The notes under the pieces are model-generated. The model did no database searches and was not told the origin of the DNA. It saw nothing but the letters and a program-made list of their open reading frames with translations. From contig PJRA01000401.1 of assembly GCA_016987375.1 (NCBI GenBank), forward strand, positions 984,659 to 1,048,658: DNA of 64,000 bases, given 5' to 3'. The stretch comes from Brachionus koreanus. Its lineage: Eukaryota > Rotifera > Eurotatoria > Ploima > Brachionidae. Every line of letters starts with the position of its first letter. The first letter of the stretch is position 1. Shown here piece by piece: positions 29,607-61,500 of this stretch. A program made the translations under genes and the position numbers.

Positions 29607-29816
29607 CACTAGAATCACCAGGCATTTTTTCACGTTTTTTTAATTTAAAAATTTTCTATAAAAAACTTTTTTATAAAGTAATATCATTTTAAAAAAAAAA
29701 AATTAAAATCAACATAAATCAAAAATGAAATATTCATTTGAAAAATCTATTCAAAAGATACGAGGATTTGAAAATTTTTCAAATGAATCAAAATGACTCC
29801 TTTGATGCTTCTAGTG
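29607..29816. mobile_element. piggyBac-like MITE (copy 3)
   Basis: Bounded by TTAA at 29603-29606 and 29817-29820. It starts CACTAGAATCACC and ends GATGCTTCTAGTG. The interior is collinear, in inverted orientation, with the copy at 16288-16505 (shared block ATACGAGGATTT near its right end). The subterminal palindrome is partly decayed (AATCAAAATGACTCC). Confidence 0.8.
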
Positions 29817-29829
29817 TTAATCAAGTTAG

Positions 29830-31261: not shown

Positions 31262-36987
<5,726 letters not shown>

Positions 36988-38262: not shown

Positions 38263-40055
38263 AAATTGACTCAAAAATTTTTATTCGTAAATCAAATTTA
38301 TTGAAAAAAATTGTGCTTTCAACACCTCTATTTCATAGATTTTTTTAGGAAAATCTATTTTAAAATGAATGATATTTAGAAAATTCAATTTTAATATTAT
38401 TTTTAAAAATAAAATAGATTCAATTTCCTGACTATAAATATAAACATTTCTAATGATTGTTTTAGAAATATTTCAAAAAAAATAAAATTTATTTTCGGCT
38501 ATTACATATAAAATTTCAGTAAATTTCAAGCTGCTTAAACATCTTTTCATTAATAATCAAATTACAGTTCTTTATTTATTTTAAAAAAATATAATTTTTT
38601 ATGAATTTTTTTTTATAAATATTAAAAAATTTATTTAACACTAGAAGCACCAAGTATTTTTTCACGTTTTTTTAATTTGAAATTATTTTATAATAAAAAC
38701 TATAACAATTTTATTAAGTAATATTATTTTTAAAGAAAATTTTAAAATCTACAAAAATCAAAAAAGATATATTTATTTCAACAATCCATTCAAAAGATAC
38801 CAGGATTTAAAAAATTTTAAAACGAGTCATTTTGACTCGTTTGGTGCTTCTAGTGTTAAAAAAAATAATAATAAAAAATTTTTATTGTAATAATTTGTTC
38901 ATGAGGCTTTTAATTGAATCGATAAATAGATTCGAGTCAAAAATTTTTAATAAACAAATATTGTTTCAGCAGCATTCCGATGCTTCGAGCAATATCCTGG
39001 TATTTAAAGTTATTGAAAAATAAAAAAAGAGCTTTTCACAAGAGATAATTAAAGCTCTCAAATTTAAAAAATATAATTGAAACTGAGACGCATTTTACAT
39101 GTAACTTTGATTACGAGGGTTATAGTTGAATAGAAAATTTCTATCATCAAATTATCCTTTAAATTCAATTAAAGATACAAAGGTTTAGCATGATTAAAAA
39201 ATACTAAAAATAAAAAATTTTAATTCTATGCTTTTATTAGGAAAAATTTTAGAATTTTTTTAAAGATGTTATTATTTTATTTCTTAATTTATTTTTAGTT
39301 CAGTTTTTCCTTGCTAATTTAAATATTTCCAAAAGATATCATGTATAGTTTTTGATAGTTGATGATTTTACATTTTCATCTGATCAAAAATTTTTAATTA
39401 TAAAAATTCAGATTCTAATTTAAGATTGTTTTTAACTTTTTATTGAAAAAATTTTCAAATACAATAAAATCAAAAAAATATATATTTCCAATAGATTAAT
39501 TGGTGGGCCAAGCCATGTTTTTAATTTTTTTCAAAAGTTTATTTCATTAATTACATAATTGTATTACATAAATAAAAAGTCGATCTTTTATCACTCTCAA
39601 TACCTGTTCAAATTAATTTTTTTTGTTTTTTAAAAAATTTGAAACAGCAAATTGAAATATCTTGAACGTTAAAATTTAATTTTTTAGCTTCATATATTAT
39701 TTATCGATTTCAGATATTTTCCCTGTTCAACTCCTAATTATCATAAGCAATTTTACGCAATGTGTTCTGATCCAAGCTATTGCGAATTTGATAGAAAACT
39801 TTACACTAGGCTTTCGAGCCATATTTGGTGATGACAAAGAATTCTCACAGATGCTTTTATGAAATAACTTTCTTCCATACCAGATGATGACAGAAGGCAT
39901 TCTTTTTTAATATATGCTTAGTCATCAAAAATTCTAGTTACTTTTAGTTCAGAGATTTTTTTTTGTTTACAAAAAAACAAACTAGAATAAATTAATAAAT
40001 TTTATTGAAAATTAAATTTTTTTTTAGAAAAAAAAAATTTGAAAAATACTCTTAG
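38263..40055. other. Intergenic stretch between MRPL35 and the EGF-Hint gene
   Basis: Holds one piggyBac-like MITE (38639-38855). The remainder is AT-rich with no frame or structure I can support; the two neighbouring genes converge here. Confidence 0.45.
38639..38855. mobile_element. piggyBac-like MITE (copy 4)
   Basis: Bounded by TTAA at 38635-38638 and 38856-38859. It starts CACTAGAAGCACC and ends GGTGCTTCTAGTG, a perfect 13-bp inverted repeat. Just inside the right end is a near-perfect palindrome, ACGAGTCATTTTGACTCGT. The interior matches the copies at 16288 and 29607. It has no ORF. Confidence 0.85.
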
Positions 40056-40129: not shown

Positions 40130-43100
40130 TTAAAATGAGACAATGTATGAAGAGAATGGTATGTATGGTAGAAGATTAAGAAAAAATTTGCAATACCAGA
40201 ATATGCCAGTGGTCTCGTCTTCAGAGCTATTGTCACGAGCATAACCAGATGTGAAATATTTAAAATAATCAACATTGATGTATCTTGATAAGAAAATAAT
40301 TGGTTTGAATAGATAATGTGCCAAGTCGTTGACCACTGTGTTTGCATAGCAAGAGGCCAGCATTGAATTTACGTAGACAGTACCCGTTTCTGTCAATGGT
40401 GCGTACGCTCCAGCCTCAACAACTTCTTCTTTCTGCACAAGTCTTTCGAAATCTAAGGGAGAATTCATGTCTTTGCTCTCAGTGACTAGCTGGTCATTCA
40501 GCTTTAAATGCTTGGCAAACACAAATTCTATTTTTGTAGTGCCTTGCTTTAGCCGTGCTATGAAATGCAAAGGTGAAATGGTCAATGTTTTATTTGAAGA
40601 TGTGGTCAACTTAATATAAGTGGCAATTATATTGCGATTTTCATGCAAATATGTGACAAATCTCGAATATTTCCATTCTTTTTCATATCTATCAAATGTC
40701 TTAATGTAGTCACCACGCTTCAATTCCGATATTTTGATAGTACCACGATCTTGCGTCTCAATCGAAGTATCTCCAGAAAAGCAAACTTGAAAAAAAAAAA
40801 TTAATTTTTTTATTTAAATAAATTTTTTTAAAATTTTTTTCTTTTACCTAAATTACTGCAGCTAGGTCCATTATAACTTGATGCACACTCGCAGTAATAA
40901 TTTCCATTAGGATCACGCTTACAAACACCGTATTTACATCTTGGATTGCATTTTTCAACCTCGCAAAACGGACCTTCATAGCCAGGCGTTATACACGCAC
41001 ACTGATACTGACCCAGCTGATTCAAAATACATTTTCCATATGCACATGGAGTTGTCTGACAAGTCTGGCTTTTTGGCTGATCACATAGCAAGCCTGTATA
41101 ATCGGAAGTGCAGTTGCACTCAAAGGCTAGTGTTCTTCGCTTGAGACAAATACCGTTGTTCATGCAATTGATTCTTTGACAAGGATTGAAGACAACTTCG
41201 CAATTTTTGCCTATAGTCCACTCGGGACATTGACATTTGTAATCTAAGATTGAAATTTTTTAGTTTTTTATTATTTAGCAAAATTTTTAAATTCAAAAAA
41301 ATAAAAATCAATCTTTGTTTTATCTATTTTATACCTGTGAGACCAATAGGTACGCAAATTCCTTCTCTTTGACAAGGATTAGAAGCACAAGCGCCCACCA
41401 AGTTTTGTTTGCATCCTAGGCCACCATACGAACCATTGCATGCACAAGTATACGAGTTCTGGTCTTGTTTTATGCATGTTCCATAATTGTAGCAAGGCTT
41501 GCTTGAACATGGATCTGTGTTTGTTAGCGAGGACTTTTCACAATATTCTCCATAAGTGTTCTAAACAAATAATAAAAAAAATAAAATTGAATGTGAAAAA
41601 TTGAAATTATTTTATTCTTGAATATACAGCTGAGCAGTGGCAGACAAATGAGCCGTCGCGATCTTCGCATGTTGAGCCAATCCAGCACGGACGCAATTCA
41701 CATCCGTATCTAAGTTTTTCATCTGATGAAAGTGCATTAAGGTTTATTTCGCATCTTGGTCCAATAAAGTCTTTGTTACACAAACAAACTTGCTCAATGC
41801 TAGCAGCAGGACGTGATACTAGAACGCCACCATTTAAACATTGTTGACTCACTTGACAATCTTTAATTTGTTTAAAAATAAATTAGAAAATAGATCATTC
41901 ATTTAATAGGTTATTGTATTTATAATTTTATTTTAAAAAATTTAAATTAGCCATAAAAGAGATTAGAACTTGATAGGAATATTAATTTTTTTTTGTTGGA
42001 TTACAAATGATAATTATTTCTAATTCTATTTGATTTAATAAAAAATTCAAAAATGTCTTGAATTAATTTTTTCTATTTTAAAATCTAATCCACTTTATGG
42101 AAAAAAAGTATATATGTATTTTTTTTAAACAAAAAATTATTTGCTTTATTTTTCTAAAACACACTTTGATAAGAACAATTATAAAAATTTTTTTTAATGT
42201 TCAATTTTTTCAAATGATCAATTAAAAATTAAAAAATTAATGAAACGGCAAAAATATCTTGTATTTTTCAAATAACTTAAAAGATTATGAACTATGTGTC
42301 AAAAAACTCTTCTTTTCAAGTCCAAAACTAGTTCTGCAAAATTTATTAGCTGATCTAAAGCTTAGACATAAGTTCTGAATTTTAGTATTAATGATTTTTT
42401 AATTTTGTAGATTCGGATAATTTTTAAATTTTTAAATCAGCTTATTTATTTTGCAGAAAAAGTTTTTAGAAATTCTAAACATTTTTCAAAATTATTTAAT
42501 TAAATTTATAACTTTTTTCAAACGATAGAAAAAATATTTTTAAATTGACAATGTGAAATTTCATACAATATTTCCAATACAAAAATTAAAAAAAATCTAT
42601 AAATTTTGTTCTTATGATGAAAAATGTGCTTTGCAAATGAAACACAGTGAAACAACCTACTACAGAAGTCTGCAAAATTCAATTCAATAAAATAAAATGA
42701 AAGTAAATCGCAATCAATTTGCACAGATTTTGCAGACTTCTACCGTAGATGAAACAACAGTTGTTTCACTTTGTTTCATCTAGTTAATTTTTTTTTAATT
42801 TTTGTATTTAATAAATATCACATTGTCTTTTAAATTAAAAAATGAAAAAATTGCTCCAATTTAAAAGCCCATTTTAAAAACTTGAAATAACATGTTAGGT
42901 CATAAAATTTTCGATTTTTTAAACATTTGGTATTTGTTTAATTTTAGCTTCTCTGTAATTCTAGAACTTTAAGTCAAATTATACTTTAAAATAAACAGAA
43001 TCAAATGCTTTTTATTAAATGACACATCTAACTCTTATTTGATTATTCAATTGGAAAACAATTTTATAAAATTAAAACTTTAAATTCAAAATTTTATTTT

Positions 43101-43651: not shown

Positions 43652-44119
43652 AATGGTAACGAAATTCAAATCTAGATGTAATTTTTTTGTTTTTGATTTT
43701 TTTCTAAATTGAGCTTTTAATTTAATAAAAGTTTGAAAAAAAAAAGTAAAAAAAACAAAACTTATTTTTTAAATATTCAAAAATTAATGAGTAAAAAATT
43801 ATGGTCCTAATCGAGAGTTGGTGAATATTTAAGATTAGAAAAAAATAAACCAAAACCAACTTTTGTGTATCGGTTTTCACCGGCACAATAAAAATTTGAA
43901 TATTTTTTGTCTAAATAAATAAATCAAATTTTATTAAGAAGATTTTTGATAATTAAATTTTATTGTCAAACTCGACAAAGAAAAAAAATAAAGAGTTTAA
44001 GGAATAAGACTATTCGCCAAATGTATATTTGTTGATTAAATATTTTGTCATATCGTATTTCATAAAGTTTCAATTTGAATTTTTCAACAGGTTAATCAAA
44101 TAGTGATTAGAACGAAGGA

Positions 44120-44125
44120 TTTATT
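44120..44125 (-). terminator. Candidate polyadenylation signal of the BOD1-like gene
   Basis: AATAAA on the minus strand about 73 bases past the TAG stop. Confidence 0.4.
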
Positions 44126-44197
44126 AATTGAATTAATTTAAATTTTTTATAAAAAATAAAAAAAAAAAAGAAAAAAGATGACATGTGTCCGACTAGT

Positions 44198-45297
44198 CTA
44201 ATCGGATTCAAGCTCGCTCAAATCACTCGTATTTACATTACTCACTGATATATCATCAAGTATTCTCGAGTCTTCATGATCCAATTTCCAATCAAAGCTT
44301 AATTCAAATCGAATTTAATTAAAATTTTGCAAAAAAAAAATTGATAAAAATTACTTGTATTCATGAGTGGGATCAATTTCCAGCTTGGGCTCATCACAGC
44401 TAGAGTTTTGTTTAGCTGTTTTTTTTATTTGAATCGGTTTTGATTTGAGTAAATTTTTTGTTGTTGACTTTTCTTCTTCAAGGATTAGACATGTTCACAT
44501 TTAACATGATACTCAAATGGGTTTGAAATTACCTTTCTTTGCTGATTCTTTTTCTTCACTTGGTGTCGACTTTTTGTCCGACTCGGATATTTTGCGAGTC
44601 TTTTCAGATTTTGTTCTTTCACTTGGCAAAAAGTCTTCGACACATACTTTTGTCTGACTAGGCGACTCTGTCTTCACCGGTGGCTTGTTGTCCGCTACAG
44701 GTGTGAATGCAATGTGTTCAGGAATAAATGATGCTCTTGGCTTATTCTCACTTTCACTTTCTGAAACCATATTTTTATACCTCAAAGCAAAATTAAGAAA
44801 TTTTTTCTTTTTACCATTTGGTTTGACAATTTTCTCCACAATGGAATCAACTAGTGGCCTCAGAGCCGGGTCTTTTTTTGAATCAATTGCTTGATTTATT
44901 AAATTAGTAATCTCTTGATTAAATGATAAATTTCTTTAATAAAATAATCTATTTTAATTAATTTAAAATTTTTTCTAAGTTTATTTACTCATAAAGCTTG
45001 CGTCTGAGTGTATCGCGAATTTCGTTTTTTCTGAGAGGAACACCCAATTTTTCTTGATCTTCAAGAAATTTTTTTACATATTCTTCAATATTTTTGTTCA
45101 AATTTTGAAATAATGGCTAAAAATTCAATTCTTTTCAATTAAATTTGATATATTTTTAATTAAATTTTATTTTTTTAGCTAACTTGAGAGGTTATTTCGC
45201 CAAAGCAGTCTTTTCTCAATCGGTCAAAGTGTCCAGCTGCTTTAAACTCTTTAATTACATCTGAAACAACGGGCCTTAAATGTTGGTCTTTGTCCAT
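44198..45297 (-). CDS. BOD1: BOD1 / COMPASS-Shg1-domain protein, 6 exons
   Basis: Exons 45297-45184, 45116-44989, 44933-44815, 44760-44533, 44475-44355 and 44297-44198 join in phase, 810 bases, 269 residues. Residues about 5-120 form the Shg1 domain shared by BOD1, BOD1L1 and yeast Shg1: VVSDVIKEFKAAGHFDRLRK, DCFGEITSQPLFQNL, then a helix pair through LRKNEIRDTLRRKL and PALRPLVDSIVEKIV. The rest is Ser/Lys/Glu-rich and ends in an acidic tail (DLSELESD). In vertebrates BOD1 controls kinetochore phosphatase activity and BOD1L1 works with SET1 methyltransferase and at stalled forks; this product could be the ancestor-like single version. The 54-bp segment 44761-44814 has GT and TTTCAG borders but is also open in frame, so it may be retained, giving 287 residues. 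BOD1 versus BOD1L1 cannot be settled by eye. Confidence 0.82.
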
Positions 45298-45844
45298 TTT
45301 AGATGGTATAAAATATAAACTTATAAAATAATTTTTTTTTCATAATTTTTTAAAGCTGGTATGTTTTTTTTTAACATGCATGCACTCTTCATAAAATTTT
45401 GCAAATTTGTTTCTTAATTTTATTAATTAAAAAATTTAAAACTTTTCTTTTTCCAATTTGAATTAATCAACAAAAAGGAAATGTCTCCGTCTTTTCATCT
45501 TAAATTAACAGAAAATTTTATAAAATATTCTCTATGCATAATCATGTTGAATTATTTCCTGTAAATTTTTATTAGCAATTAAATTTTTTGGATAAATTAA
45601 AATACACTTTTTAAGAACAAAAAATTACTTAATTTGTTTATTTTTTTTCCGGCTGGTCTTCCACGTATATTCTTAAATTTATTTTTCATTTTTTTCCAAT
45701 CTATTCTTTTATGCTAATAATGACTGCTCATCTATCTAGACTTTAAATACTTACTAAATTGCGAGCTTAATGGAATTTATGTGATCACATTTGTAGTTTT
45801 TTAAAGTAATTTTTATTGAATATTATCAGATAAATTAATAATTA
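45298..45844. other. Upstream flank of the BOD1-like gene
   Basis: AT-rich, no supported exon. The promoter of the minus-strand gene should be here; no distinctive element is visible. Confidence 0.35.
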
Positions 45845-46145
45845 ATTTTTGTTTTCCTTAAGACTAGGCACTTATGTGTCAATATCGGGGTCAGTGCTAG
45901 CCGATTCAGGTTTTAAAGATTACTTAGGTTCTGATCTATTTAGAACTTCTCTAAAGTGTACAACCAATCTTTGTCATTGCTCTCATTCAGTTGTCACTAA
46001 TGTTGTTCTTTTCTGTTATATCGCATTAGTGATCTTGAATAGCACATGTAGGTCCCTTTTTAAGCTGACTTTTTCTGCTTACGCACTAGTTTATTTTGTT
46101 TCACTTATATTATTACAATACAATAATGCTTATAATTTCTTCTAA
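45845..46145 (-). mobile_element. LINE fragment, linker between endonuclease and reverse transcriptase
   Basis: Reading the minus strand through two stops gives LVTTE, then QRLVVHFREVLNRSEPK and a tail with STDPDIDT. This order (a TTE-x-E-Q block, W-x-x-H-F-x-x-V-L-N-R, then a D-x-D-I-D-T block) is typical of the linker upstream of the reverse transcriptase in one group of LINEs. The plus-strand ORF over the same bases is its shadow. Confidence 0.6.
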
Positions 46146-46859
46146 TTTGGTCAGATACATATTTTAAGTTTCAAATAAAAATTATTCCGTTTTGTTACTT
46201 TAGATTTTTTTCAACTTTTAGTTTGAAGCAATGTCAAGGAATTTTATTTATTTGTATATTTCTCATTTTCTTTTTAGTTTCTTCTTATTTTAGTAAGTCA
46301 CCGCAACGGGTGTTCAAAATGTAATGACAGTAATTTTAGAATAAAAATAAAATATGTTCTTATAATCAGAAGACTGAAATTTTGTATAAATGTAACTTAA
46401 TCTCTAATGTAAAAAAATTAATTATTAGTTTAATTGAATGCTGTTTATTTTCTGAATTAGGCCAATTACATTACCTCTGACCTTTTCTTAAAAATCACCT
46501 CGGCACAATGCTTTCTAGAAAATTAAGTTTTTTTTATCATATTAAAGAAAATTTTACAAAGATTTTAAATATATACATGAATTAGTTATAAACAATCATA
46601 CATTCAAAAGTTATGATAAAAAAATACTAAATTCTGACATTTATTTTTTTGGTAAAAATTCGAGTGTTTTAACATATTCGATCATAACTTTTGAATAAAA
46701 TAAGATAATGGCATCAAATTTTGTACATATAGACTCAATTGCCTGATAATTAATAAAAGTTAATTAAAATCATATATTTAGGCGCTATATTTTAAGTACA
46801 AAAATACAAAAATGGTTTTTTAGAAAGCTACAATAACAAGCTTTAAAATGTGATATTAA

Positions 46860-47045
46860 GAGTGTTGGTAGATGGAGTGAATAAAAATCCTATTTGGTTC
46901 AACCGAGATATTAAACAAACATGTCAACTTAAATTCAGGGCTTTTGCCAAATATAGAGGAGCTTCTACAGCGAACAAACAAGAGCTTTTGCAAGTTGTTT
47001 GCGGATGAAGCAAATTGATTAGCGCCATTAATAATACAACTGATC
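46860..47045 (+). mobile_element. LINE fragment, pre-reverse-transcriptase linker
   Basis: The frame reads NPIWFNRDIKQTCQLKFRAF, then AKYRGASTANKQELLQVVCG and a stop. A W-F-N-x-D-I-K-x-x-x-x-x-K-x-R-A-F block followed by an N-x-x-x-L helix is the usual linker of jockey/CR1-like LINEs. Confidence 0.6.
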
Positions 47046-47600
47046 AAATGTAGGGCTGTAACTTTTCTATTTCCACTGAGGAAATAGAAATAAAATTTAT
47101 TTATCTTATCAGGAAAAAGAAATAACTCTCATTTCTTTTACTATGAAAATTAAATAATTTTTGTTTCTTATTTCCAAGAAAAGGAAATAATAATTATTTT
47201 GTATTACCTGAAATTAGGAATAATCCTAATTTTTTTTTCTTGGAAAAAAAAGAACTCTTGTATTAATTTTTATTTTATTTCTAATCAAACTTAGTTGTTA
47301 AAAAAATTTTAAACAAGCCTTAGACCAGATTTAATGAAACGGAAAATACTTTAATAGTTCGAATTCAAAATAAAATTGATTATAAGTACAGGGTATTATC
47401 CTTACTAAAAATAAAAATTTTTAAATATTAAAATATAAACTTCTTTTTTTTTCGAAAAATCATGCCCAGTTCAAAATTAACTTTAAGCCAAAAAAAATCT
47501 CAAAATTCTCTTCTTGTACTCCATTCATTAAAAATCTCTAAAATAAACAAAAAATCCAAAAAGGCTCAAAAGTCGAAATAAAAAAATAATCCGAAATGTT
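47046..47600. other. AT-rich segment inside the transposon nest
   Basis: No identifiable coding remains. It contains short direct and inverted AGGAAAT/ATTTCCT motifs at 47070-47240. Confidence 0.35.
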
Positions 47601-47604
47601 CACA

Positions 47605-48092
47605 AAGAGATATAATTATTTGTAGATGATTTAGAAACTCAATTATTTGAAGATGGAGTTCAAGGTGAAGACATGACAACCGATGATGAATCAGATTTAA
47701 TTGAATATGATGGAAAAAATAAGACAAATCTTCCGGATGCATAGATTCACTTTGAGAGAATATTCGATGAAGAATACATCTGTTTGATTTGTAGAGAAAG
47801 TAATAAACAGTCTGTAATTAAAGCACCTAAAAAAAAAGACGGAAACTTAAGAAAACATCTCGGGAGCTATCATAAAATGATAAACTATATTATCCATCTC
47901 AATTAAAAATATTCACTATAGTAAGTTATGTTAAAGAAGAAAAAAAAAGAGTTGGATTTTGCTGCTATAAATTGCATAATAATTGATGGGCGACCTTTTA
48001 GTGATTTCAAAAAATCAGGATCAGGAATGTTTTTAATCGTTGCAGTCCCCGGATATATTGGACCAAGTCGGCAAACGGTCAAAAAGAAATAA
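47605..48092 (+). mobile_element. hAT-type transposase fragment with BED-like zinc finger
   Basis: The frame reads EYICLICRESNKQ, GNLRKHLGSYHKM (a C-x2-C...H-x4-H BED-like finger), then after a stop LDFAAINCIIIDGRPFSDF, KKSGSGMFLIVAVPGY and GPSRQTVKKK. The last blocks match the start of the hAT transposase core (a D-G-x-P-F region followed by P-x-Y-x-x-P-S-R-x-T-V). Stops and loss of the catalytic and dimerisation regions show a truncated copy. Confidence 0.7.
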
Positions 48093-48129
48093 TGTATATT
48101 GGCAACTCAAAGATTGCTAGGCAAAAATC

Positions 48130-48452
48130 TCAATGCTAAATGCAGATGGTTTGAGAGTTGAATTAGTTGAGACTACTACTGAGCGCGATCTTGATGTAAT
48201 GGTGAACAACAAATTCAAATGGAATGATCAAATTGACAACGGCGTTAATAAAGCTAACAACATGCTTGATATGCTCAAGAAAACGTTCGTGCTCAATCGT
48301 TTTTGTAGCTTTATAAAAAATATGTTAGACCGCATCTAGAATACTGTGTACCTGCCTGGAATCCTTATTTGAAGAATATATTTAGACTTGAACAAGTACA
48401 AAGAAGAGCAACGAAACTTGTTCCACAAATAAGAAGTTTGAACTATGAGTCA
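48130..48452 (+). mobile_element. LINE C-terminal fragment broken by the assembly gap
   Basis: The frame reads VETTTERDLDVMVNNKFKWN, ANNMLDMLKKTFVL, then shifts to [19 protein letters not shown] and [20 protein letters not shown]. This is the conserved LINE tail after the reverse transcriptase. It is related to the fragments at 3780-4215 and 63500-63900, so at least three copies of this family lie in the window. Confidence 0.8.
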
Positions 48453-48610
48453 NNNNNNNNNNNNNNNNNNNNNNNNNNNNNNNNNNNNNNNNNNNNNNNN
48501 NNNNNNNNNNNNNNNNNNNNNNNNNNNNNNNNNNNNNNNNNNNNNNNNNNNNNNNNNNNNNNNNNNNNNNNNNNNNNNNNNNNNNNNNNNNNNNNNNNNN
48601 NNNNNNNNNN
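48453..48610. other. Assembly gap, 158 N
   Basis: Unknown bases inside the LINE fragment. ORFs drawn across it are not meaningful. Confidence 0.99.
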
Positions 48611-49084
48611 AACAGATTGGACAATGTCGGTAGAAACAAAAATAAAAAAAAGTCTACTATAGCGGGATTACGTTAGTCTGCTTTGTCAGTTTAGTTAAAC
48701 TAAACCTGACCGTAGAATATTAACTATTATTATTATTATTAAACTAAAGTATGGTAAATAAAATTTATTAGTTCGAATATTAATAATCACAATGATTAAG
48801 ATCAGGTGAATTTGGTGGCCAATTGTTTTTATTGATGAATTTATGTTAGTTCTTTTCACAATACTTTTGACATACTATTTCAGTACTTGGCTCCATCTTG
48901 TTGAAAAATCATACCATGATTATTTAGCTTTATTTAATAATAAATTTGATTGACCATACTTTAATTTAATATCACATTTTAAAGCTTGTTATTCTAGAAT
49001 TCAAAAATTAACATCATTCAATTAAAATAATAATTAATTTTTTTACATTAGAGATTAGGTAACATTCGTACAAAATTTCGTGCA

Positions 49085-49230
49085 GACTTGTTTTTAAGTC
49101 ACAAGTCTTAAGTCAAGTAAAAAGACTTAATCTTCAAGTCAAAGACTTAAATTTTTTTTTAAGTCATAACTTTGACTTAAATTTTTGTGACTTAGATTTA
49201 AAACTGAGACTTAAAAACAAGTCTGGTCTT
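49085..49230. repeat. AAGTC/GACTT-rich foldback repeat
   Basis: AAGTC or its complement GACTT occurs more than a dozen times in about 145 bases, including AAGTCACAAGTCTTAAGTCA. The outer ends pair (AGACTTGTTTTTAAGTC on the left with GACTTAAAAACAAGTCT on the right), forming a hairpin. Similar short patches occur at 29530-29600 and 12335-12360. Confidence 0.75.
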
Positions 49231-49915
49231 TTGATTAAAGGAACATATTTTATTTTTATTCTAAAAATACGATCAGTACTTTTTGAACATCCGTTACTTA
49301 TTTTTTTCTTATAATTTAATTATAATTGTCTTAATAAACTTTATCTAAATTCTTATGTTTTATTTTATATGAAAAATATTCTTGTTTTTTTTTCGTCTAT
49401 TCACTCTAATATTTAAAATTTAAGTGATTTAAGTGCTTAAAATTGTAATCGGTCTGAGAATGCAATCAATTTTGCAAAGAAATATAACAAATCTAAATGT
49501 TGTTATAGTAATAATAGTAATAAATAAAGAAACCCCATGAAAAAAATTGTCGATAAAGTGGACAATTTAATTTGAAATAAAATTTTTATGGCTATGCTTT
49601 AAAATGATTTTTAATTATTGCTATTCTGGAAGCATATTTTCATGTCCCCAAAGCTCTGCAAACCTTTATTTTATTTATAAATAAAATTTTTAATCTTGAA
49701 AAAATAAAATCATTTTAAGCATTAAAACTAAATAAAAATTAAATGACTTATTTAGTTAATAATAAAATTTTAAGAGCTTTCTATTTGTTATTTTCATTTA
49801 GATAAAGAATGATAAGATTTTACTATTCTTGTAGTTTTATCAATTTAGAATAAAAATTGAAAATTTTTAAGAAAAAATTGTTCAATGTTCAAATTCTTTT
49901 GAATCGCTTTTTAAA
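49231..49915. other. 5' flank of the LRR-like/RT gene
   Basis: AT-rich with no supported exon. Presumed promoter of the plus-strand gene; there is no LTR-like direct repeat matching the region after 52741. Confidence 0.4.
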
Positions 49916-52741
49916 ATGATTTTAATTTTTCTTTTACTTGTAAAAATAGTTGCCAGCAAACAAAATCCTAGCACTTGTTCTGAGCCTATTTTTCCGTCAA
50001 GCTGCATTTGTTACTCTCCAAATGATATTACTTGTCAAGACTTTGATAGCTTTGCTCAGTTAAATTTTTCCAACAACTTTAATTCAACACGACTATTCAA
50101 GTTTGTTCGGCTTTATCCCCAAAAACCTGTTGATTTAGATCAAAAATTGAGCTTGAATGGCCTACCTCTGTCCCAAGACTCGATCATATATCTAAAAAAT
50201 TTGAATTCAATTTATTTTATGCAAAATTTGGCTGTCAGCTTGGTCTACTTAGATCAATCAAGCCTTCATATAACTAATTCAAGTCTAAAGTTTTTCTATG
50301 ATCAGAATCAATTGCTAAATTCTCGATGTAGCCGAATTTCAATTTTGTCCACATACAAACCATTATTTTCTTTTTTTAAAAAAATTTTTCTAAATGCAAA
50401 ATTTGACAGCCAACTTTGTCCATTTGTGTTCCAAAACGCCCAAATTGATCTTTTTACCATACAAAACCTTGACAAACAAAATCAGATTGAATTTTTGGAT
50501 TTTCCAAATTTAAAAATGGAGCTCAATTGTTCGGTCAAAAGGATCGAAATTGATTCAAGTAAAATACAAATTCTAAGCAATTCTTTTTTATATGAGATTA
50601 TTTTTCGAAATCTTCAGGAATTAATTATAACAGAGAGCACAATTGAGTCAATAGATGAACTATTGTTCAAGAGTTTTGTCAATTTAAAACTTGTTTTGTT
50701 CAGCCTGAATAATTTTGCTTCATTTATCAAGAACAACAATACATGGCTGCAATATTTGAACATCAATAACCAAAGTGAACTGCTTATAGGGCTAATCGAT
50801 CCCCTGTTAGAGTACGACTTTCCGGACCAAGATTTTTGTTCATTTTATCTATTTCCTCATGAAAATCAAGTATTTCCTTACATCAAGAGCCGAGTTGCCT
50901 TGAGCTGCACATGTACTCTGGTTTGGCTGCTTAAAAACTACGCTAATTCAAATCAAAGCTCATTTTTGCTCTCGAGCGATTCGGTTTTTGACTGCTTGAA
51001 TAGCCCTGACTTTTATACAAAATTAGCTGAGTGTAATTTTTATCTTAAGCTAAAAGCATGTGCAGGTCAAATTTTTACCACTGAAATTACAACTAAATTG
51101 ACCAGCGAAAGCCATACTGATACTATTGATGCTACTACCACCTATGAGACCAGTGAACAAACGACTTTAATCCAACAAACAAGCACCCGGCAAACAATAA
51201 AAGACAAACGCACTCAGATTTTTTTAATCATTTTTTCTTTATTAATTTTTATTTTATTTTGTTTAATAGCTTTTAAATTTGAATTTTTAAAAAGAAAAAT
51301 TTTTTTCTTTGACAAAAAATATCTAAAGCCTATTTACAAGCAGTGTTGGCACATAATTAGAAAAAAAACTATGCCCGAAACAATCATCTATCCTTTGAGT
51401 TTGGAAAATGTGCTTGAAACAAAGCTAAGCTCAAATTCACAAATAAATAGCTGCAAAAAAATTCTCAACTGCGTAAAACATTCTATAAGTTTGAATTCAG
51501 AGCTGTTTACATCAAAAAAAACGAATTACTTTGACGAAAATCAGTTTCAAATCTTAGAAAATCGAGTAGATATGTGGCTGAATGAAGGTATTGTTGAGCC
51601 ATCGATTGCAAGCCAATGGTCATCACAAATTTATTTCATTAATGAACAAAATTTTTACATAGATTATTCATTGCTTAATTCAAAGACCTACAAACACGAG
51701 GCTAGTCTTTTTAATGTAAGAGAATGCATTGAAAATTTAAAAAAAGCCAAGTATTTTACCAAAATTTGTCTTGATGCGTGTGTCTATAAAATAGAATTAG
51801 ACAAAAGTTCAAGAGTTTATACATCTTTTAGTACACCAAGAGGAAAATACCAATTTAAAGCTACTCCGCCTGGTCTAGCAAATGTTTTTCTCACATTTAA
51901 ACAAAACATAGAGCAATTGATGCAACATTTGCCATGCTTTGCTTACTTTGATAGTTTAATAGTCTACACTGAGTCTGAATCGTCTCATATTAGAGTGTTG
52001 GATCAAGTGCTTGAAATTTTAAATGCAAATGAAATAAAAATTAACAAAAATGAAAGCTTTTTTATGAAAGATGAAATAAATTTTTACTATGGAAAGATAA
52101 AAAATAGCATGTTCCTTAAAAATCAGTCAATTGTTGATACAATAAAACAAATTGAGTTGGCCGATAATTTTTTTAAAATGGAAAATTTTCTCATTTTTTC
52201 GCACAGCTTTGCCAAAATTTTCAAAGACTACAATTATTTGGTGGGCCATTTTGAAAGCTTAAAAAACCAAGGAATATTTTATTTAAGTTCAAAACAAAAA
52301 CAAGTGCTAAAAGAGATAAAAAATTGGGTTGAATTATTTTTTAATCAAGAAATGTTTGATCAAATATTCGATTTAAGGCTTTATGTTGATTTTAGTTCAA
52401 AAGAATTTTCCTACTGTTTAACTGGCGTGGTAAGTCGCAAACAAAATTTTTCGATTCCAATTCGATTTGACTCAATTGAATTAGTTGACAGAAATAGAGT
52501 GTCGAATAAATTTGATCTGATGCTATTGACAATTAAACAACTTCAGCCATTTTTGTATAATCGAAAATTTGAAATTGTTCATCGAGATTTCTTAACAGAA
52601 GAAAATTTTATAAGTTCTATTAGAAATCATTGTCCAAAATTTTTTGAACATGTGCAAATTTATAGCTATAAGTTTAAAAATGATGTGAGTTGTGTGACTG
52701 AATATTTTAATTTTATTAAATCAGTTAAAAAGTTAAAATAA
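49916..52741 (+). CDS. Membrane protein: LRR-like ectodomain, one TM helix, cytoplasmic Ty3/Gypsy-type RT-RNase H region
   Basis: Single-exon ORF of 941 residues from ATG to TAA. Residues 1-14 are a signal peptide. Residues 21-40 form an LRR N-cap-like Cys cluster (C21, C30, C32, C40); weak leucine-rich spacing follows; residues 308-375 look like an LRR C-cap (CTCTLVWLL, C331/C333). A Thr/Ser-rich stalk precedes one TM helix at about 435-453 and a basic stop-transfer stretch. From about 540 the tail aligns in order with Ty3/Gypsy-type reverse transcriptase: WLNEGIVEPS, WSSQIYF, IDYSLLN, LDACVYKIEL (first catalytic Asp D620 kept), FSTPRGKYQF, PGLANVFLTF, then YFDS at 677-680 where a functional enzyme has two Asp. 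An RNase H-like region follows (VDFSS at D825; NKFDLMLLTIKQLQPFLYNRKFE), also altered. No gag, protease, integrase or LTR is seen. I infer a reused, probably catalytically dead domain; its signalling role is unknown. Confidence 0.85.
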   Translation: MILIFLLLVKIVASKQNPSTCSEPIFPSSCICYSPNDITCQDFDSFAQLNFSNNFNSTRLFKFVRLYPQKPVDLDQKLSLNGLPLSQDSIIYLKNLNSIYFMQNLAVSLVYLDQSSLHITNSSLKFFYDQNQLLNSRCSRISILSTYKPLFSFFKKIFLNAKFDSQLCPFVFQNAQIDLFTIQNLDKQNQIEFLDFPNLKMELNCSVKRIEIDSSKIQILSNSFLYEIIFRNLQELIITESTIESIDELLFKSFVNLKLVLFSLNNFASFIKNNNTWLQYLNINNQSELLIGLIDPLLEYDFPDQDFCSFYLFPHENQVFPYIKSRVALSCTCTLVWLLKNYANSNQSSFLLSSDSVFDCLNSPDFYTKLAECNFYLKLKACAGQIFTTEITTKLTSESHTDTIDATTTYETSEQTTLIQQTSTRQTIKDKRTQIFLIIFSLLIFILFCLIAFKFEFLKRKIFFFDKKYLKPIYKQCWHIIRKKTMPETIIYPLSLENVLETKLSSNSQINSCKKILNCVKHSISLNSELFTSKKTNYFDENQFQILENRVDMWLNEGIVEPSIASQWSSQIYFINEQNFYIDYSLLNSKTYKHEASLFNVRECIENLKKAKYFTKICLDACVYKIELDKSSRVYTSFSTPRGKYQFKATPPGLANVFLTFKQNIEQLMQHLPCFAYFDSLIVYTESESSHIRVLDQVLEILNANEIKINKNESFFMKDEINFYYGKIKNSMFLKNQSIVDTIKQIELADNFFKMENFLIFSHSFAKIFKDYNYLVGHFESLKNQGIFYLSSKQKQVLKEIKNWVELFFNQEMFDQIFDLRLYVDFSSKEFSYCLTGVVSRKQNFSIPIRFDSIELVDRNRVSNKFDLMLLTIKQLQPFLYNRKFEIVHRDFLTEENFISSIRNHCPKFFEHVQIYSYKFKNDVSCVTEYFNFIKSVKKLK

Positions 52742-52761
52742 AAATCAAATTTATAACTATC

Positions 52762-52767
52762 AATAAA
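52762..52767 (+). terminator. Candidate polyadenylation signal of the LRR-like/RT gene
   Basis: AATAAA 21 bases after the TAA at 52739-52741. Confidence 0.5.
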
Positions 52768-53057
52768 ATATGCCAATTATGAAATCTAAAATAAAAGCTT
52801 TTAGTGTAAATTTTGAATTTTTTTAGTACTGTTTGATAATTATTGAAAAAAATAATTTTTGCATAATTTTTTAACATTCAATCATTTGATGGATTATCTG
52901 TTTATTTTTTCTAAAATGTTGAAATATCTTATACCAATTTTTACTTTTTTTTGGAATTTTCAGAACAAATTTGAGGACTAAAATCGAACCAATTTTTTCA
53001 AGATTTTAAACAATAAAAGTTTAATGTATTTTTAATAATTTTCATCGATTTTGTTTT

Positions 53058-53395
53058 GGCATATTGAAGTTTATAATCAAAATTTAATGATCATGCTCAG
53101 ATGTAATTTATTATAAAAATTTTTAAGAAGTTTTTTAAATGAAAAATTTAATGCAGATAAATGTTTTCATGAGTACCATAACATGTTAAACCATATCCAA
53201 CTATTTTGCATAATTCTGCATTCAGAAATCGTTTGCAGAAATTTGTACACCTAAAAAATTAAGATTAACATTAAATTTTTACTTTAAAAATATGCTTCTA
53301 CAATAAATTTTTTACTCAAAAATATTTTAAAAACTTTTTTCAATCATAACTCTTGAGCATGATCATTTTAATTTGATCATAAACTTCATATTGCC
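53058..53395. mobile_element. Foldback MITE, GGCATATTGAAG ends
   Basis: The left arm starts GGCATATTGAAGTTTATAAT and contains AATGATCATGCTCA; the right arm contains TGAGCATGATCATTTTAAT and ends ACTTCATATTGCC. The flanks TTTTGTTTT at 53049-53057 and 53396-53404 match over 9 bp but are low complexity. Related half-arms occur at about 56795-56835. No ORF. Confidence 0.75.
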
Positions 53396-54959
53396 TTTTG
53401 TTTTTTGATTTAAAATAGTATATTGATCAAATCAAATGGCAATCTCCACTCACTTTTTCAAGCAGAAGTACAAGAGGCCATCTATACAAAATTAAAATAG
53501 AAATAATCAAAATTGTGCCCAAAGATACCAATTCTTCACAAACCGTGTAGTAAATGGCTGGAATATGCAGTGGAAACTCATTCTAGCGTTATTTTTAAAG
53601 CAAAAATAGAGAAAAACTTTCATTATATTTTTTGCACATAATCTGTTGTCATATTTACGCATTTATGCATTGCTATAAACCACTATACTATACTATATAA
53701 AATAATTAATCAATGAACTAGATCACAATATTGGTGCTCTAAAGATTTCTCATTATCTCAAAAGAAATTTAAAATGTAAATTTATTGTTCCTAAAAATTT
53801 TGAATATCAGCTTCTTCCTTTTGATAGTAGATATTTTTATTATTTAAGCAATTGATTGTTTTTTTTTGGATAGATTGATTAACAAAAAGCTTATTACAAC
53901 GAAAAAAAAAATTGATTATTTATATATTTAGATATATTTATAAAATACAAAAAATTTCACAAGACGATTAATCTGTGTTTTCTTTAGACCAAAATCTTTA
54001 AAAAAATACTGATGGGACAAATTAGAATAAGGCTTTACAGTGAATTAACATTTTACTTAAAACGATATATTAATCAATGTAAAAAAATGATAAAAATTAA
54101 TTGAATAAAAAATTAACCGTAAAAAAATTTTTTTGAAAAAAAAAAACTAATGTACAAAAAGTTCTAAATATAAATTCTAAAATTTCACGAGATATTATAA
54201 AGGTAAAAAAATGACATATTTTCCTGAAATAGCATTTTAATTGTTAAAAAAGCCTTTGAAATTTATGCCTGTTAGATTGTTCATATCTTAACTCAATTTA
54301 GAATAATAAAAAAAAAAGTCATTGTTATAAACCTTTATTTTATGTTTTATTTTGACATGTTAGGATTTGGTGGCTCGTGGTTATAACACAAATAATAAAG
54401 AAAAAGATTCTAAATGACAACTTTATTAATAAAAGCCACTTCTAGCCTGAAAAAAAGAAGAAAAAATAAATAGAATAATAACAAAAAAGAATAATCAAAA
54501 ATAATTAATAAATTTTTGACTTCATGGTTTTTTTTTTATACAAAATAATAACAAAAAATAATGAGAGCACTTGTCTAATACTTTACAGAGTGTTAAATAC
54601 TAGTGATTCGCTAAACATATCAGATTATAGTATTGCACTGTGAAACAAAAGACAATTAAGTGTTAATTATTGTTTGTTGAAATAAAAACATCATTTAAAA
54701 TAATTAAATTTTAAAATATTTAAAATAATTAACATCACTTAATTATTTTATTGAACTTAATTTTAAATGTTTCTGTTGAAATAATAAAAATATATACAGT
54801 AATTCTCAGACACAGTACTGTAAACAACGGTGCGAGTAATCATATGTGCAATATATATTTATAAAAAAAAAACTAAACTAAACAAAAAATAGACTAAATG
54901 ATATATGCCTATGACCAAAAAATTTAAAATTGCATATACTAATACCAAGATTAAATTCT

Positions 54960-55125
54960 TTGATTTTTAAATCCTCGTATCTTTTGAATAGATTTTTCAA
55001 ATGAATAAATCTTTTTTATATAGATTTCAAAATTTTCTTTAAAAAATGATGTAACTTTATAAAATTATTATAGTTATTTTATAATATATTTTTGAATTTA
55101 AAAAACGTGAAAAAATGCTTAATTA
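54960..55125. mobile_element. Interior fragment of the piggyBac-like MITE family
   Basis: The block AAATCCTCGTATCTTTTGAA and following sequence match the interior of the 16288-16505 copy in the same orientation, ending in AAAAAACGTGAAAAAATGCTT. The CACTAG ends and TTAA duplication are missing, so this is a decayed or internally recombined copy. Confidence 0.6.
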
Positions 55126-55588
55126 AATTTTTTATAAGTATTTAATTTTAGAAAAAAATTTTCAAATTCAAAAATTTAAATCTAAATTAAAAACAATTCT
55201 TAATTGAAATAAACCGAATGTTAAGTTAAATTAGCTTCTAGACAAACAGTAGAATATTAGCCGTCGACAACATTCAGCAATTTGTCTTAATATAGAGCAA
55301 AAAATGCAGCAATGAACTTAAAAAAATTTGTCGCTAAGGCTTACACTCAACTTGGTTACTAATTTTAAATTAGTGAAAAAGTTTTTTCAATAGCTAATAA
55401 TTAAAACTTTATCGAGTTTAATTAAGACTATGATAAATATTGCTCTATAGCTTTCTACTTTGTTTTTTTTTCTTAATAAGGCACAAATTTTTATTGTTTT
55501 CGGTTTTTTGAATTTTTTCACCTGAAAAAAATAAAATATTTATTTGAAAAATTTTCGTCATCATAAATAGTTTGCATACATAAAAAGA

Positions 55589-58500
55589 ATGCAAAAGTAC
55601 AAGTCTAGCCGATCAGGTAGAGCAAGCAATAAATTTGAAACGGGAACCCTGAGTCAAAGAAGCCTGAATAGTAAAAAACAAACTTTAATTCTTAAATTTG
55701 AAAATAAATTATTTTTAAATTTCAATTTTATTTTTTCCTATTCTATTAGATATTGACGAATCGTGGAAAGTAATTGGAAATTTGAAATCTGGAATGCGCG
55801 ATTTGGAACAAAAATTAAACAAATATTCACAAAATATTAAACTGCTGTCTTCGATTAGCAATACTTCATTTAATTCAACTGCCCATTCATTCAATATGCC
55901 TTCAGAACCTATGAACAAAATATTTACCTCAACATCGCTTAACTCGGCTTTAAAACCAAGTGAATACCCAAAATCACCGTCCAAATGCTCTTTTGCTGAA
56001 AAGCCGATTTTTGAAAATTCTTATCTATCGAGCACCATACAAGCATGCGATCCGGGTCTTGGCTATTTTGATATTTATCAAAACGATCATCAAAATTATT
56101 CCAATTATGACTACAATGAGCCATACGAATATTCTCCAAATGTCAAGTGCTTGAATGATTTTAGTGCCGATTTCAATAGATCATATTTAAATTTTGATAA
56201 CAAGCCTAGCTATGAGTGTCACAAGTCGGCCAAAACAACTAGAGTTAATGTCCATGTTCCTTCAGGTAATGTAGTTTATTCTAAAATATTTAGTCTGGAT
56301 TTATTTTATATTTTTTTAAAATAAGCAAAGTAAATTAAATTTTTTTTTCTTAATTTAATTTTTTTTCTTAATTTCAAGATAAAAGATTTTTATATGATTT
56401 TTTTTTTTTAGTTTAGTTCAATTAAAAAAAGTATTGCAAAATTCAAAAATTTAAGATTAAAATAACTTTTTTACTATGATCATAAGAATAATTGTGCCTA
56501 TTGTTTGGGTTTATTTAAAATTTACAATATCTAAAATTTGTCTCTTCAATCGGAGTATTCATTATAGTATTTTTCTACTGAAAATAATTAAAAAATTTTA
56601 ATGACTAAATTTTTCAATTTATTTAGTATAAATACCTGGTTATTTTATCGATTAATTTATTAAAACTTTTTTAAAAATAAACATAATACTTATAAATTGT
56701 TTAACATGCTTTGTTACACATTAAAATATGTTTCCGCATTATTTTTTTTTAACTAAAAAAAAATCTTTTAAAATTTAAAATAAAAAATTTTTCAAGCATG
56801 ATCATTTAATATTGATCATAAACTTCAATAAACCAAAAATTCAATATAAAATTTATTATATAATACTTGTAGAAAAAATTAAGATTTAGTTCTCTAATGA
56901 TTTAATTAAAATTTTATTTAAGCATAAAGTAATTTTGGTGCAAATTTTTTGTAAGTTTCTTTCTTCAGTCTGCTTCGCTCATTCCGAGTTTAATTAAAAA
57001 CTATTGAATAATGAAAAATAATATTAAATCATATATCATATATTTTTTTCAAATTCTTTCAATACGCTAAAATTAATTTTTCTGAAAGCAGTTTTTTTTA
57101 ATAACAATTTCAAAATTTTAAGTTATTTTTTAAAAAATTCTTTGCCAAATTAATTTTTTTAAACAACCTTTTTGATCATATTATGTTAAGTCATAAAATT
57201 TGCGTTTTTAAAAAGGTTGGATATTTTAAAATCTGGTATCTTTGCTGAAATAAATAGAATTGCATGTTCTTCAAAATGACAGATCTTATTTTTAGTTTAG
57301 TTAATTGTAAAAAAATTATAAAATGAAAAATTTTGATGGAAATTTTGAAATTTCGGTACAGTTAGTTCATTGTTGAAATATATGCCTATCAGTAGAAACA
57401 ACAATGGTACAAGATGGATTTTAAAAAATTCAAGAGTGTTGATACGAGTCTTCAAAAAATAAATTATCATGTAGAAAAGCTATTTTTCATCAGAAAGATC
57501 TTTGTACGGCTTTTGAGAGCAAGTCAATTAATTACAGATCATTACTGGTAATGAGAAATAGATTTAGTTTCGAAATTGTGATAACAGAAATCAATGGTTG
57601 TGCCTTTTTCAACTAGATCAGCCAGTCGTGAAAAGAGATAAAAAGATGATGTTGTGTGTTTGATGGAATTTCCAAGGAGTAGTAAAAAAAAAGAAAAATA
57701 TGGAAAAAAATTATAAATATGAATTACTTTATAAATCTTTTTTTTAATTGAATAAGAAGAAATAAAACGATAGAAATGGTTTTTCCGGGCTGATAGTTTA
57801 ACTGCTTGTGCCGACGCTTTGGCTCTTAATTTTCTTTTTGTTTCTAACTCATTTTTTTGTCTTATCTCGTAAATTTGTCTTTCTCTAGTTTCCCATACAA
57901 TACATGATTCTTTTTGGTGTAACCAAATATGCTCTGTATAGCCATAGTGCAAGGTCTGTGTTCTGATTCAAGTGTTTAGATAAAAGCTCATTGCGTTAAA
58001 CTGGTAATGATTATTAGGAGTCATTTTCTTAGAAGAAGACATTTTACTAACCAAAGTCAAGTTAAAGATTTTTGGCTATTTGTTGATCTTTTTGTTATTT
58101 ATAGATTATAAAATGTTATAAGAAAACGCAAAATTTTTCACTAAACGAAAAAGATGTTTAAAAAGATGCATAAACACATATTTATTTATTATTAATTTGT
58201 TCATCTGTTCGGGCATAAACGCCTTCAGATAAAAATATAAAATATTTTATAAATTTTATTTTTTTTAATAAAATTTTAAGCGATTTTTAAATTTAAGTTT
58301 TGTTCATTTAATAAATGAGAAATATTTATTAAGATGAGAAACACAAATAATAATCAAAGAAATGTTTAGTTAGGCTATTGGATGAGTTTTGAAAATAAAT
58401 AAATAAGATAATATGATAATCAGAAAAAGAAAAATATGGCCATTGTGAATTTTGGAGCAAAAAACAAAAAAAATCTTAAATTAAAAAAACTTTTTTTCAA

Positions 58501-61500
58501 GGTTTGATACAAGGTTTGTATCACCCGAATTTAGTATGTATTAAACAATTTGCAATTGTGCATAAAAAGTTTATGTATTAGAAAATTATTAAAGTTAAAT
58601 TGCACAGTTTCTGCACAGGCTAAATTTGGGTGATACAAACCTTATATCAACTGATAAATTTTGCAAAACAATATTTAGTTCCTTTAAAAAAAAAATTATT
58701 TTAATTTAAAATTTTTGGTTTTGTTTTTTGCTCTAAAATTCTCAATGGCAAAATATGGAAATTATCTTTAAGAGTCAAAAAATTTTTGTAAATTAAAGTA
58801 GAATCGTCAATTAACCAATTTACAATATTTACAAATAAGTCTAATATAAAATGAATATAAATTTGTGATTATAATCGTTGACATTTTGACTTTCAACCTT
58901 TTTAACACTCAAAGGCCGGAGGTATCTTTTGAACCCCTTTTGTAACTTTTTTTATTTGATTTTTGTTCAATAGATTTAATCCCTTTTTATAATTGTTTTT
59001 TCAATCATATCTTAAAAAAAAATATTGAAAAATTATTTAATTTTTATTACAAAATAATTTTTTTTAAAGAAGAAAAGAAAAAAAAAAAGCGTGTCAAATA
59101 AAATGGATTGAAAAATCATTCCCGCTTTTGAGTGTTATAATTTTTAATTGTACTGGTCAGTTTGATAATGACAACTTAATGATTAGATTAGAAAACATTT
59201 CAGAAGTATTCTAAGTTGATAATTGTTTACAATTAGCTTAAAATATGTTTGTTTAAATAACCGATTACTTAATATTCCTAATTCACATAAATTACCTAAT
59301 CGTTGTGTGTTTTTTTAAGATCTCTAAAGAAATGAAATGTGAGAAAATCAGCAAAATTTAAAAGCTATTTTGTTTTTATTTAAGATAAATTAAAATATAA
59401 AGCTTCCAAAGTTATTTTTTTATTTTCAATTAACATCTATAAATATCAATGATCGATTTTGTTTCGTAAATTTTTTTTATATATAAAAATAAAGTAATAA
59501 ACTATCATCTAAAGTAAATATCTTTTTTCTTATTTTTTAAAGTTTGATTTTTTTTGTTCACTTTTTAAAAATGAATTTAAATTTGCAAAAATCGGAAATT
59601 TAAAAAAAAAATTCTGACTATTTTCAATCAGGATATGTTTAAAAAAATAATTTTTTAAATTTTTTTTTCCAAGACGTTTAGACTGACTTGACGAGAACAA
59701 AAAAAACAACTAAAATAAAATATTTTAAAAAAAAAATTAATTTTTTTTCTAAATTTATTTATTGAAATTTTTGAAAAAAATTTGAAAAGTTTTTTTTTAA
59801 ATATTTTTTTTCTCAAGCTAAGCATAAATTTAGACCATGATCATGTTAAATAAAGCCATTTAAACAACAATTCAAATACTCTACTTTACATAATCTGTAA
59901 GCAAGTGTTTTTAAAACTATTCGATTAGGAAAAAACTGCAAGACTGAAAAAAAAAACCAAAACCAAAAAATAAATAAACTATTAATTTAAACATGTTTTT
60001 CTAAAGATAATAACTTCCGGGCTGATCCAACATCAAAGCATTCATCAATGATCTCAAAAGACAAGCTGACGCGCAAGATCGCTTCGGGTGAGAAGAAATT
60101 TTTTCAAAAATTTTTTTCAAAAATTTTAAAAATTTAGAGGGTAAACGATCGACCAGCGAGGATGTAAAGTACGATTTTGGCCAGTCGAGTAGCGCCTCGT
60201 TTCACCAACAGCAACGCGTGCTCCACAAAGAAACCGACGTGCTGCCGACTTCGTCATCGACCAAGCGGCACTTGTCGTCGGCTTCGTTCAGCAACCACGT
60301 GGACAGCCGGCACTACGAGGTATCCAAGCCGACCAGCCGCAAGACCGCCTTTCCCAAACACGATGAGGCCGACGAGCTGCCCAAGAGCCACGCCAAATTG
60401 AACGTCAAGGAGGAGACGGACCGTCTGCTCGGCCTCAACAGCTCGACAAAAAGAATCAAAAGGCCCGAGGAGCCTAAAAGCAGTGCGCTTATCACTACTA
60501 GTTCGTGGCGAATTGGCGAAAACCTCGCCCAGAAACACATAAAGCCCGAGCCGGACAAAAGCATACTCTATCAGATGCAGTACAACCCGCGCAGCACCAG
60601 TGCGCCATCGAACCAATCTCCGCAAGCTGCCAAAAAAAACAAGCGCACCGAGTGCCACTTGGTCCAGGCCTCCAAGTCTGGATCGTCTTCTGCCCCCAAG
60701 ACTCCTTCTCTCAACAGTCCACAGATAAACAAAAACAAGTCCAAGCCATACGACCTAAACGACATACACAAGTACATTCAGAGCCAGAAAACAAAGCGAC
60801 TGCATGAAACAAAGTCCGAAAAGGAGAAGCAAAAAATTCAAGATGAGGAGAGAAAAAAAAAGCTACAAGAACTATACAGAAAACAGCGACTGCAAGCCAT
60901 CAAGTCTGCTCAGCAAACACATTCAACTTCAAAATTGAACAATTCAAATGAAAAAAACTCGCAAAACAACTCGAACAATTCGAGCAAAGCTTACGAACAA
61001 GACATGTCCAAGCTATTGATGGATCGAATAAGCCATTTGCTCAACGACAATGACAAACTAGTCGAAAAACAACGCAAACAAATACTAAAAGTTAGAAAAA
61101 AAGTTGACTTTGGCAGCGACGATTTAAACGAATATGATCACGAACCGGAACAAAATGAATCATCGACATCGTCGGCCAGTCTGAGCACAGTAAACAATTC
61201 AGCCAATGCCACTCCAAAACAAGGCCAAAAAACAGCATCGATGAAACACGATCGCCTCAAAAAAATATGCTCAATGGCTCTTGATTTGCAGACCAAACTG
61301 CAGCAAACTAAGCTCAAATTGTTCGGCTTTAATCCAACTGATGAAGAGGACATGATCGATTATTATAAAAAAAATGAAAACACTTTTGTCACATCGACCA
61401 AACACGAGAATGAAGACAACGAGTTTATCGATGAGCTGGACGGTGTTCATTTTGACCGGGTGTTTAAACAGGACATGAGAGAGAATAAAAATCATGTGCA

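Follow-up and report, generated by a model that had tools for sequence, protein, structure and literature searches.

A gene in the rotifer Brachionus koreanus appears to encode a membrane receptor whose cytoplasmic part derives from the polymerase of a Ty3/Gypsy retroelement. The gene lies in a window (the whole stretch of DNA analysed here) of 64,000 nucleotides, and its product, P0001, may be a host receptor with a domesticated pseudo-reverse transcriptase (pseudo-RT) serving as a cytoplasmic docking or dimerisation scaffold, a reading that we hold at a probability of about 0.5. It is highly probable that P0001 has the architecture described below and is the product of a receptor gene rather than of a retroelement; the scaffold mechanism in the form proposed is tentative, falling slightly short of an even bet. 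The full fusion is known from one genome, where it occupies two loci on different contigs. We know of no membrane receptor with a retroelement polymerase as its inner domain, and a search of the open-licence literature with strict terms, which is weak evidence, found no report of an RT-tailed receptor.

P0001 is encoded by a single open frame of 941 codons plus stop (49916-52741, forward strand) with no internal stop; its parts are listed in Table 1. Translation bears out the uninterrupted frame reported in the first-pass annotation, and a hydropathy scan gives one hydrophobic segment, at residues 430-460, in agreement with the single transmembrane (TM) helix that had been placed at about residues 435-453. 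By hydropathy only, the paralogue P0008 (see below) also has one such segment, at residues 391-420; its Thr/Ser stalk is almost absent and its juxtamembrane segment is shorter than that of P0001.

Table 1. Predicted parts of the P0001 gene, with positions in the window and the basis of each assignment
Feature	Residues	Position	Strand	Basis
Signal peptide	1-15	49916..49960	+	By-eye reading of translation
Diverged LRR-type ectodomain with Cys caps	~16-386	49961..51073	+	Family alignment; family profile vs PDB
Thr/Ser-rich stalk	~387-429	51074..51202	+	By-eye reading of translation
Single TM helix region	430-460	51203..51295	+	Hydropathy scan
Juxtamembrane segment	461-529	51296..51502	+	Between TM and RT part
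Degenerate RT fingers and palm	~530-730	51503..52105	+	RVT_1 and Ty3 RT match; model, fold search
Cys618 replacing motif A catalytic Asp	618	51767..51769	+	Alignment to Ty3-type rows
Asp-Ser of YFDS, replacing YxDD Asp-Asp	679-680	51950..51955	+	Alignment to Ty3-type rows
Thumb/connection region	~731-818	52106..52369	+	Predicted model, fold search
RNase H-like region	~819-941	52370..52738	+	Model secondary structure, low to middling confidence
AATAAA, possible polyadenylation signal, 21 bases 3' of stop		52762..52767	+	Sequence reading

Several other features were recognised elsewhere in the window. On the reverse strand, open frames at 40133-41259 contain a Hint module (PF01079, E 3.2e-35) with adjoining EGF domains and are read as a self-splicing module of Hedgehog type carried by an EGF protein; TPR-rich open frames at 7318-8004, 10920-11603, and 13854-15272 are perhaps exons of one TPR gene, and a C2H2 zinc-finger frame lies at 31265-32419. 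A dispersed repeat of ~240 bases, perhaps a small transposon, is present in both orientations at 16274-16514, 29602-29820, 38630-38870, and 54963-55120, its copies being 78-96% alike. Strong inverted repeats with short loops (3241-3592, 9703-10019, and 13068-13250; 91-94% complementary) may be MITE-like. Short RT fragments in small frames at 16656-16943 on the forward strand and 23264-23740 on the reverse strand (RVT_1 E 3.5e-11 and 1.4e-18, respectively) are ordinary retroelement pieces, contrasting with the intact receptor frame.

The ectodomain of P0001 belongs to a family for which a 14-member alignment, P0001 included, reveals a shared Cys/Trp pattern and a C-[TS]-C-T cap. A profile of these 14 ectodomains matches Toll-like receptor 3 in the PDB at 8.1e-5 and also LGR4 and LGR5; the 60 PDB rows listed for it are, going by name, almost all LRR proteins. 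There is no LRR match for the P0001 sequence alone, LRR_8 matches occur in three of the 14 members (E up to 1), and a single-sequence fold of residues 16-430, at a pLDDT of 33.6, is unusable as an ectodomain model. The ectodomain, originally read as LRR-like, is probably of LRR type by the family profile, though not by P0001 taken singly.

At least 69 distinct loci of this family were found in the genome, counted after genome-search rows within 2.6 kb were merged and two rows, on C13 and C26, that match in the Thr stretch only were omitted. Some of the 69 contain stops, and four (C1:814780, C10:844706, C19:322436, and C34:691784) match, by reading, in a 7TM-like part only. Fifteen loci (L040-L054) were read besides the paralogue. 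Long tails with 5-10 hydrophobic segments were found at eight of these (L042, L045, L046, L048, L049, L050, L052, and L053), and family frames with such 7TM-like tails run to about 730-800 codons; the label rests on hydropathy, since Pfam recognises no 7TM-like part in the six such proteins scanned. One hydrophobic segment is present at L040, L043, and L047 and none over threshold at L041, while the frames at L044, L051, and L054 are broken or incomplete. The L047 frame (G000:C36:270573-273206 region) is of ~878 aa and has two tandem ectodomain copies followed by one TM segment. A further frame of 1220 aa on C48 crosses N and its tail is unreadable. Beyond this genome, P0017, a hypothetical protein of Brachionus plicatilis, shares 64% identity with L045 across 754 alignment columns, its next match here being 33% identical, and further relatives occur in environmental contigs. 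Two pattern matches in viral contigs were considered as related loci and neither was confirmed.

Among the family tails read, RT lies directly behind the ectodomain only in P0001 and P0008, and apart from these two tails none of the 38 RT-type genome matches comes within 6 kb of a locus in the set of 69. When 150 RVT_1 places were scored (of 1190 candidates; the two tails were not among them), five lay 2.3-5.2 kb from a family locus; all five are separate short frames of 160-337 aa and are not read as receptor tails. An RT match 6.7 kb from a 95-codon family fragment (C1, L025) was read as chance. A Ty3 fragment adjoins family member L046 and is split between frames, unlike the intact receptor tails.

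The first-pass annotation had described the tail as some 400 residues of Ty3/Gypsy RT and RNase H, and profile comparison and structure prediction both lead to the same assignment. Pfam RVT_1 matches residues 599-723 (E 1.1e-15), and Ty3 RT (PDB 4ol8) matches residues 540-727 by sequence (8e-15). An AlphaFold model of residues 530-941 (mean pLDDT 70.1) aligns to the RTs of CaMV, Ty3, and MLV over 399-429 Foldseek columns, the alignment to MLV RT covering tail-model residues 8-403. RVT_1 is all that a Pfam scan of P0001 yields; the scan gives no match for the RNase H part and no TIR domain. The RNase H-like region was also aligned to Ty3 pol (tblastn and alignment), and its stretch of the model has a pLDDT of only ~47-73. 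Sequence and model together point to homology with Ty3/Gypsy RT-RNase H over the whole tail, which is predicted to adopt the full-length fold of a Ty3-type RT plus RNase H, the latter weakly modelled.

Catalytic residues were compared by aligning both tails to 22 Ty3-type rows. The motif A Asp, present in all 22, is replaced by Cys618 in P0001 and His524 in P0008. D620, at first taken for the surviving first palm Asp, is not that residue: it sits two positions after the one occupied by Cys618, with which the motif A Asp aligns. The reading of YFDS (677-680) in place of YxDD was correct; P0008 has FFDS, and in both tails the first Asp of the box is retained and the second (21 of 22 rows) is Ser. 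Both tails have Lys where 16 of 22 rows carry the motif B Gln, and the hairpin of the fingers, which bears conserved Lys, Gly, and Arg, is shorter or altered. The RNase H part aligns with less certainty; there, P0001 retains the first Asp, found in all 21 rows that are ungapped at this position, P0008 has Asn instead, and the Glu, present in 18 of 18 rows, has given way to Asp in the two tails. Absence of the motif A Asp, the second YxDD Asp, and the motif B Gln sets the P0001 tail apart from Ty3/Gypsy RT. Given the losses in motif A, YxDD, motif B, and the fingers, polymerase activity is not expected, and because the first palm Asp is among them nothing argues for a residual activity; the polymerase site is destroyed in both tails.

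P0008 emerged when the genome (83 Mb, 92 contigs) was searched for paralogues with the same junction. This second, deeply diverged locus (L039; G000:C47:434573-437122) is one open frame of 850 aa with its parts in the same order as in P0001, and the existence of a distantly related gene built alike makes P0001 look like a maintained host gene and not debris. The two proteins are 45% identical in the ectodomain and 27% in the tail. Their tails are mutual best matches within the genome, and a tree of RT-RNase H sequences unites them at 100/100 to the exclusion of the 22 Ty3-type rows, 16 of which come from this genome and six from elsewhere (other matched frames, namely L006, L007, L020, L025, L028, a further fragment of L022, and duplicates of the two tails, did not enter the tree, being near-copies, overlapping, or broken). 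Nineteen residues common to the two tails occur in none of the 22 rows; either tail has at most six such residues in common with any single Ty3 row. The ectodomains likewise come out as a pair (100/96; tree of 24 rows). Since the RT branches are both long and unusual in composition, and either tail, once the other is removed, cannot be placed with support among the Ty3 rows, a single capture, which would have preceded duplication of the two loci, is likely and not proven.

The tail could instead be a tolerated passenger, that is, the product of an in-frame retroelement insertion into a receptor that acts via its ectodomain, with the tail serving as a soluble filler or anchor of little function. 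Its evolution, faster than that of the ectodomain (27% versus 45% identity), and the fact that close family members manage with short tails would agree with this. Against it stands the retention of a full-length frame at two loci despite 47% nucleotide identity. Between the tails of P0001 and P0008, identity at codon positions 1, 2, and 3 is 43, 57, and 40%, compared with 29, 33, and 33% by composition; second positions are thus the most conserved, and core residues are common to both tails. Simulated neutral drift to the observed nucleotide identity produced a mean of 31 stops and a minimum of 19 in 300 runs, compared with none observed. The simulation excludes neutral decay and supports what had been proposed from the open frame, namely that selection has kept it. 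NG86 estimates are dN 0.82 and dS 1.69 for the tail and dN 0.67 and dS 1.59 for the RT part; dS is near saturation, which makes dN/dS a rough figure. We regard the passenger reading as unlikely.

Under the receptor-scaffold reading that we prefer, a Ty3-type RT-RNase H would have been captured as the inner module of an LRR-type receptor family member, replacing the position where relatives have 7TM-like or short tails. Such a capture had been suggested from P0001, and it gains support from the second diverged locus and from a host family with other tails. P0001 would be a type I membrane protein with its RT fold in the cytosol; the ectodomain would bind ligand outside, and the pseudo-enzyme would provide a non-catalytic docking or dimerisation surface that relays ligand binding. 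Its partner is thought likelier to be a protein than a nucleic acid, because template and nucleotide contacts are lost. The binding scaffold of the first-pass annotation, with nucleic acid as an example, is therefore retained as a scaffold and not favoured as regards nucleic acid: finger and motif B residues are gone and charge differs between the tails. Their net charges, +5 and +13, fall within the range of the Ty3 rows (-5 to +19), so nucleic-acid binding, though less likely, is compatible with them.

A different use of the same fold would be as an anti-retroelement trap or sensor, in which the tethered dead RT would restrict or detect the element by pairing with a resident Ty3 RT or by binding its RNA/DNA hybrid. 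HIV p51, a dead structural RT subunit in a heterodimer, offers a likeness. The Ty3 type of the tail, the presence in the genome of Ty3-type copies with long open frames, and a fold retained while catalysis was lost fit such a role, which we nevertheless consider quite improbable: no row among the 22 of Ty3 type stands particularly near either tail in the tree (at most 24-26% identity), and the template and nucleotide contacts are lost. Far less probable is that the ectodomain and RT are not one protein, through two genes or an assembly accident; the frame is known from one genome and from sequence alone, but a second, diverged locus on another contig repeats the same continuity and order.

No gag, protease, or integrase had been visible around P0001. 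A tblastn search of window positions 44000-60000 and L039 with eight pol-type proteins, which could miss a divergent gag, likewise matched the tail only and revealed none of these genes next to P0001 or P0008. No direct repeat of at least 30 bases brackets the P0001 frame within 47500-55500 or the paralogue within L039:1620-5300, in a search that could miss gapped or very diverged repeats. Compared with a Ty3/Gypsy element, P0001 has an RT-RNase H of the right type, fused behind an ectodomain and TM helix; the motif A Asp and the second YxDD Asp are replaced, and these searches gave no accompanying genes or LTRs. A retroelement carrying the ectodomain as an envelope-like gene, for which the Ty3 type of the RT might speak, is very improbable, given that the ectodomain precedes the RT in gene order, its kin are genes with other tails, catalytic residues are lost, and neither element genes nor bracketing repeats were detected in the searches just described.

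Profile searches of a very large protein collection yielded a candidate for the same fusion in another species. P0013, a truncated environmental protein of 319 aa from a contig of 1720 bases, comprises the end of a family ectodomain, a Thr stalk, a TM segment, and then ~110 residues before the frame ends, the last part of which aligns with RT fingers. Its 115-residue tail scores 11.5 bits against a profile of the two tails, a score reached by 0 of 2000 shuffles (1782 scored) and, in a second run, by 1 of 1000. By Smith-Waterman comparison, the score with P0001 was reached by 0 of 1000 shuffles and that with P0008 by 85 of 1000. Against a profile of the 22 Ty3 RTs its score is 3.1-3.3 bits, which 9 of 2000 shuffles attained in one run and 11 of 1000 in the other, a level that means little, since two of eight other tails run as controls (P0012 and P0015) reach 10 and 7 of 1000 with that profile. 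The tails of P0009 and P0014, alike by eye, gave no match in the same comparison. The two best matches of P0013 in this genome are the two RT-tailed loci, as is also true of P0009, which has a non-RT tail. With shuffle controls so mixed, P0013 is suggestive only of the same ectodomain-RT junction in another species. We consider it doubtful that capture occurred once before the split of distantly related rotifers, with P0013 representing the same fusion, and that the RT fold has come to sense retroelements or to relay LRR signals in animals with few or no remaining Toll-like receptors.

As regards such receptors, the available part of one survey describes them as absent from most rotifers examined, with one species having one (PMC8609888). 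Four TIR matches above the Pfam cut-off occur in this genome (best E 1.1e-5), so an absence of Toll-type genes is not claimed. In a bdelloid rotifer, excerpts of a further source describe expanded LRR and 7TM families and link a retroelement to the moving of host genes, perhaps including an LRR gene (PMC3846280).

Prp8 works like the proposed P0001 tail: excerpts of PMC5603734 present it as a soluble, RNA-binding core protein of the spliceosome in which enzymatically inactive RT and RNase H folds are kept as a scaffold, the RT-like part going back to group II introns. P0001 differs in having a Ty3-type RT attached to a membrane receptor. RVT genes, characterised in the accessible text of PMC5718144 as domesticated cellular RTs that contain a large insertion loop and form a long RT branch of their own, resemble P0001 in having an RT kept as a host gene; the P0001 tail is Ty3-type with RNase H, unlike RVT, a distinction made by description and not by sequence comparison. 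Neither protein is described as a receptor in those portions of the two sources (PMC5603734, PMC5718144). Toll-like receptors and LRR-GPCRs have an LRR-type ectodomain with Cys caps, as P0001 probably does, and differ in their inner part, which is TIR or 7TM rather than a pseudo-RT. Host genes formed by capture of transposon domains are known. Imagin, a domesticated integrase, is one example given in the available section of PMC12863088. P0001 is like such genes, but in its case a polymerase-RNase H serves as a receptor tail.

If the reading is right, the RT of a retroelement can become a signalling pseudo-enzyme, which would widen the known fates of such enzymes, and tails would have been exchanged within a large receptor family. 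In its most novel form it would define a new class of receptor, with a retrotransposon polymerase-RNase H as the cytoplasmic sensing or signalling domain. It would also pose a testable question for rotifers, a group in which most surveyed species, by the available account, are without Toll-like receptors (PMC8609888).
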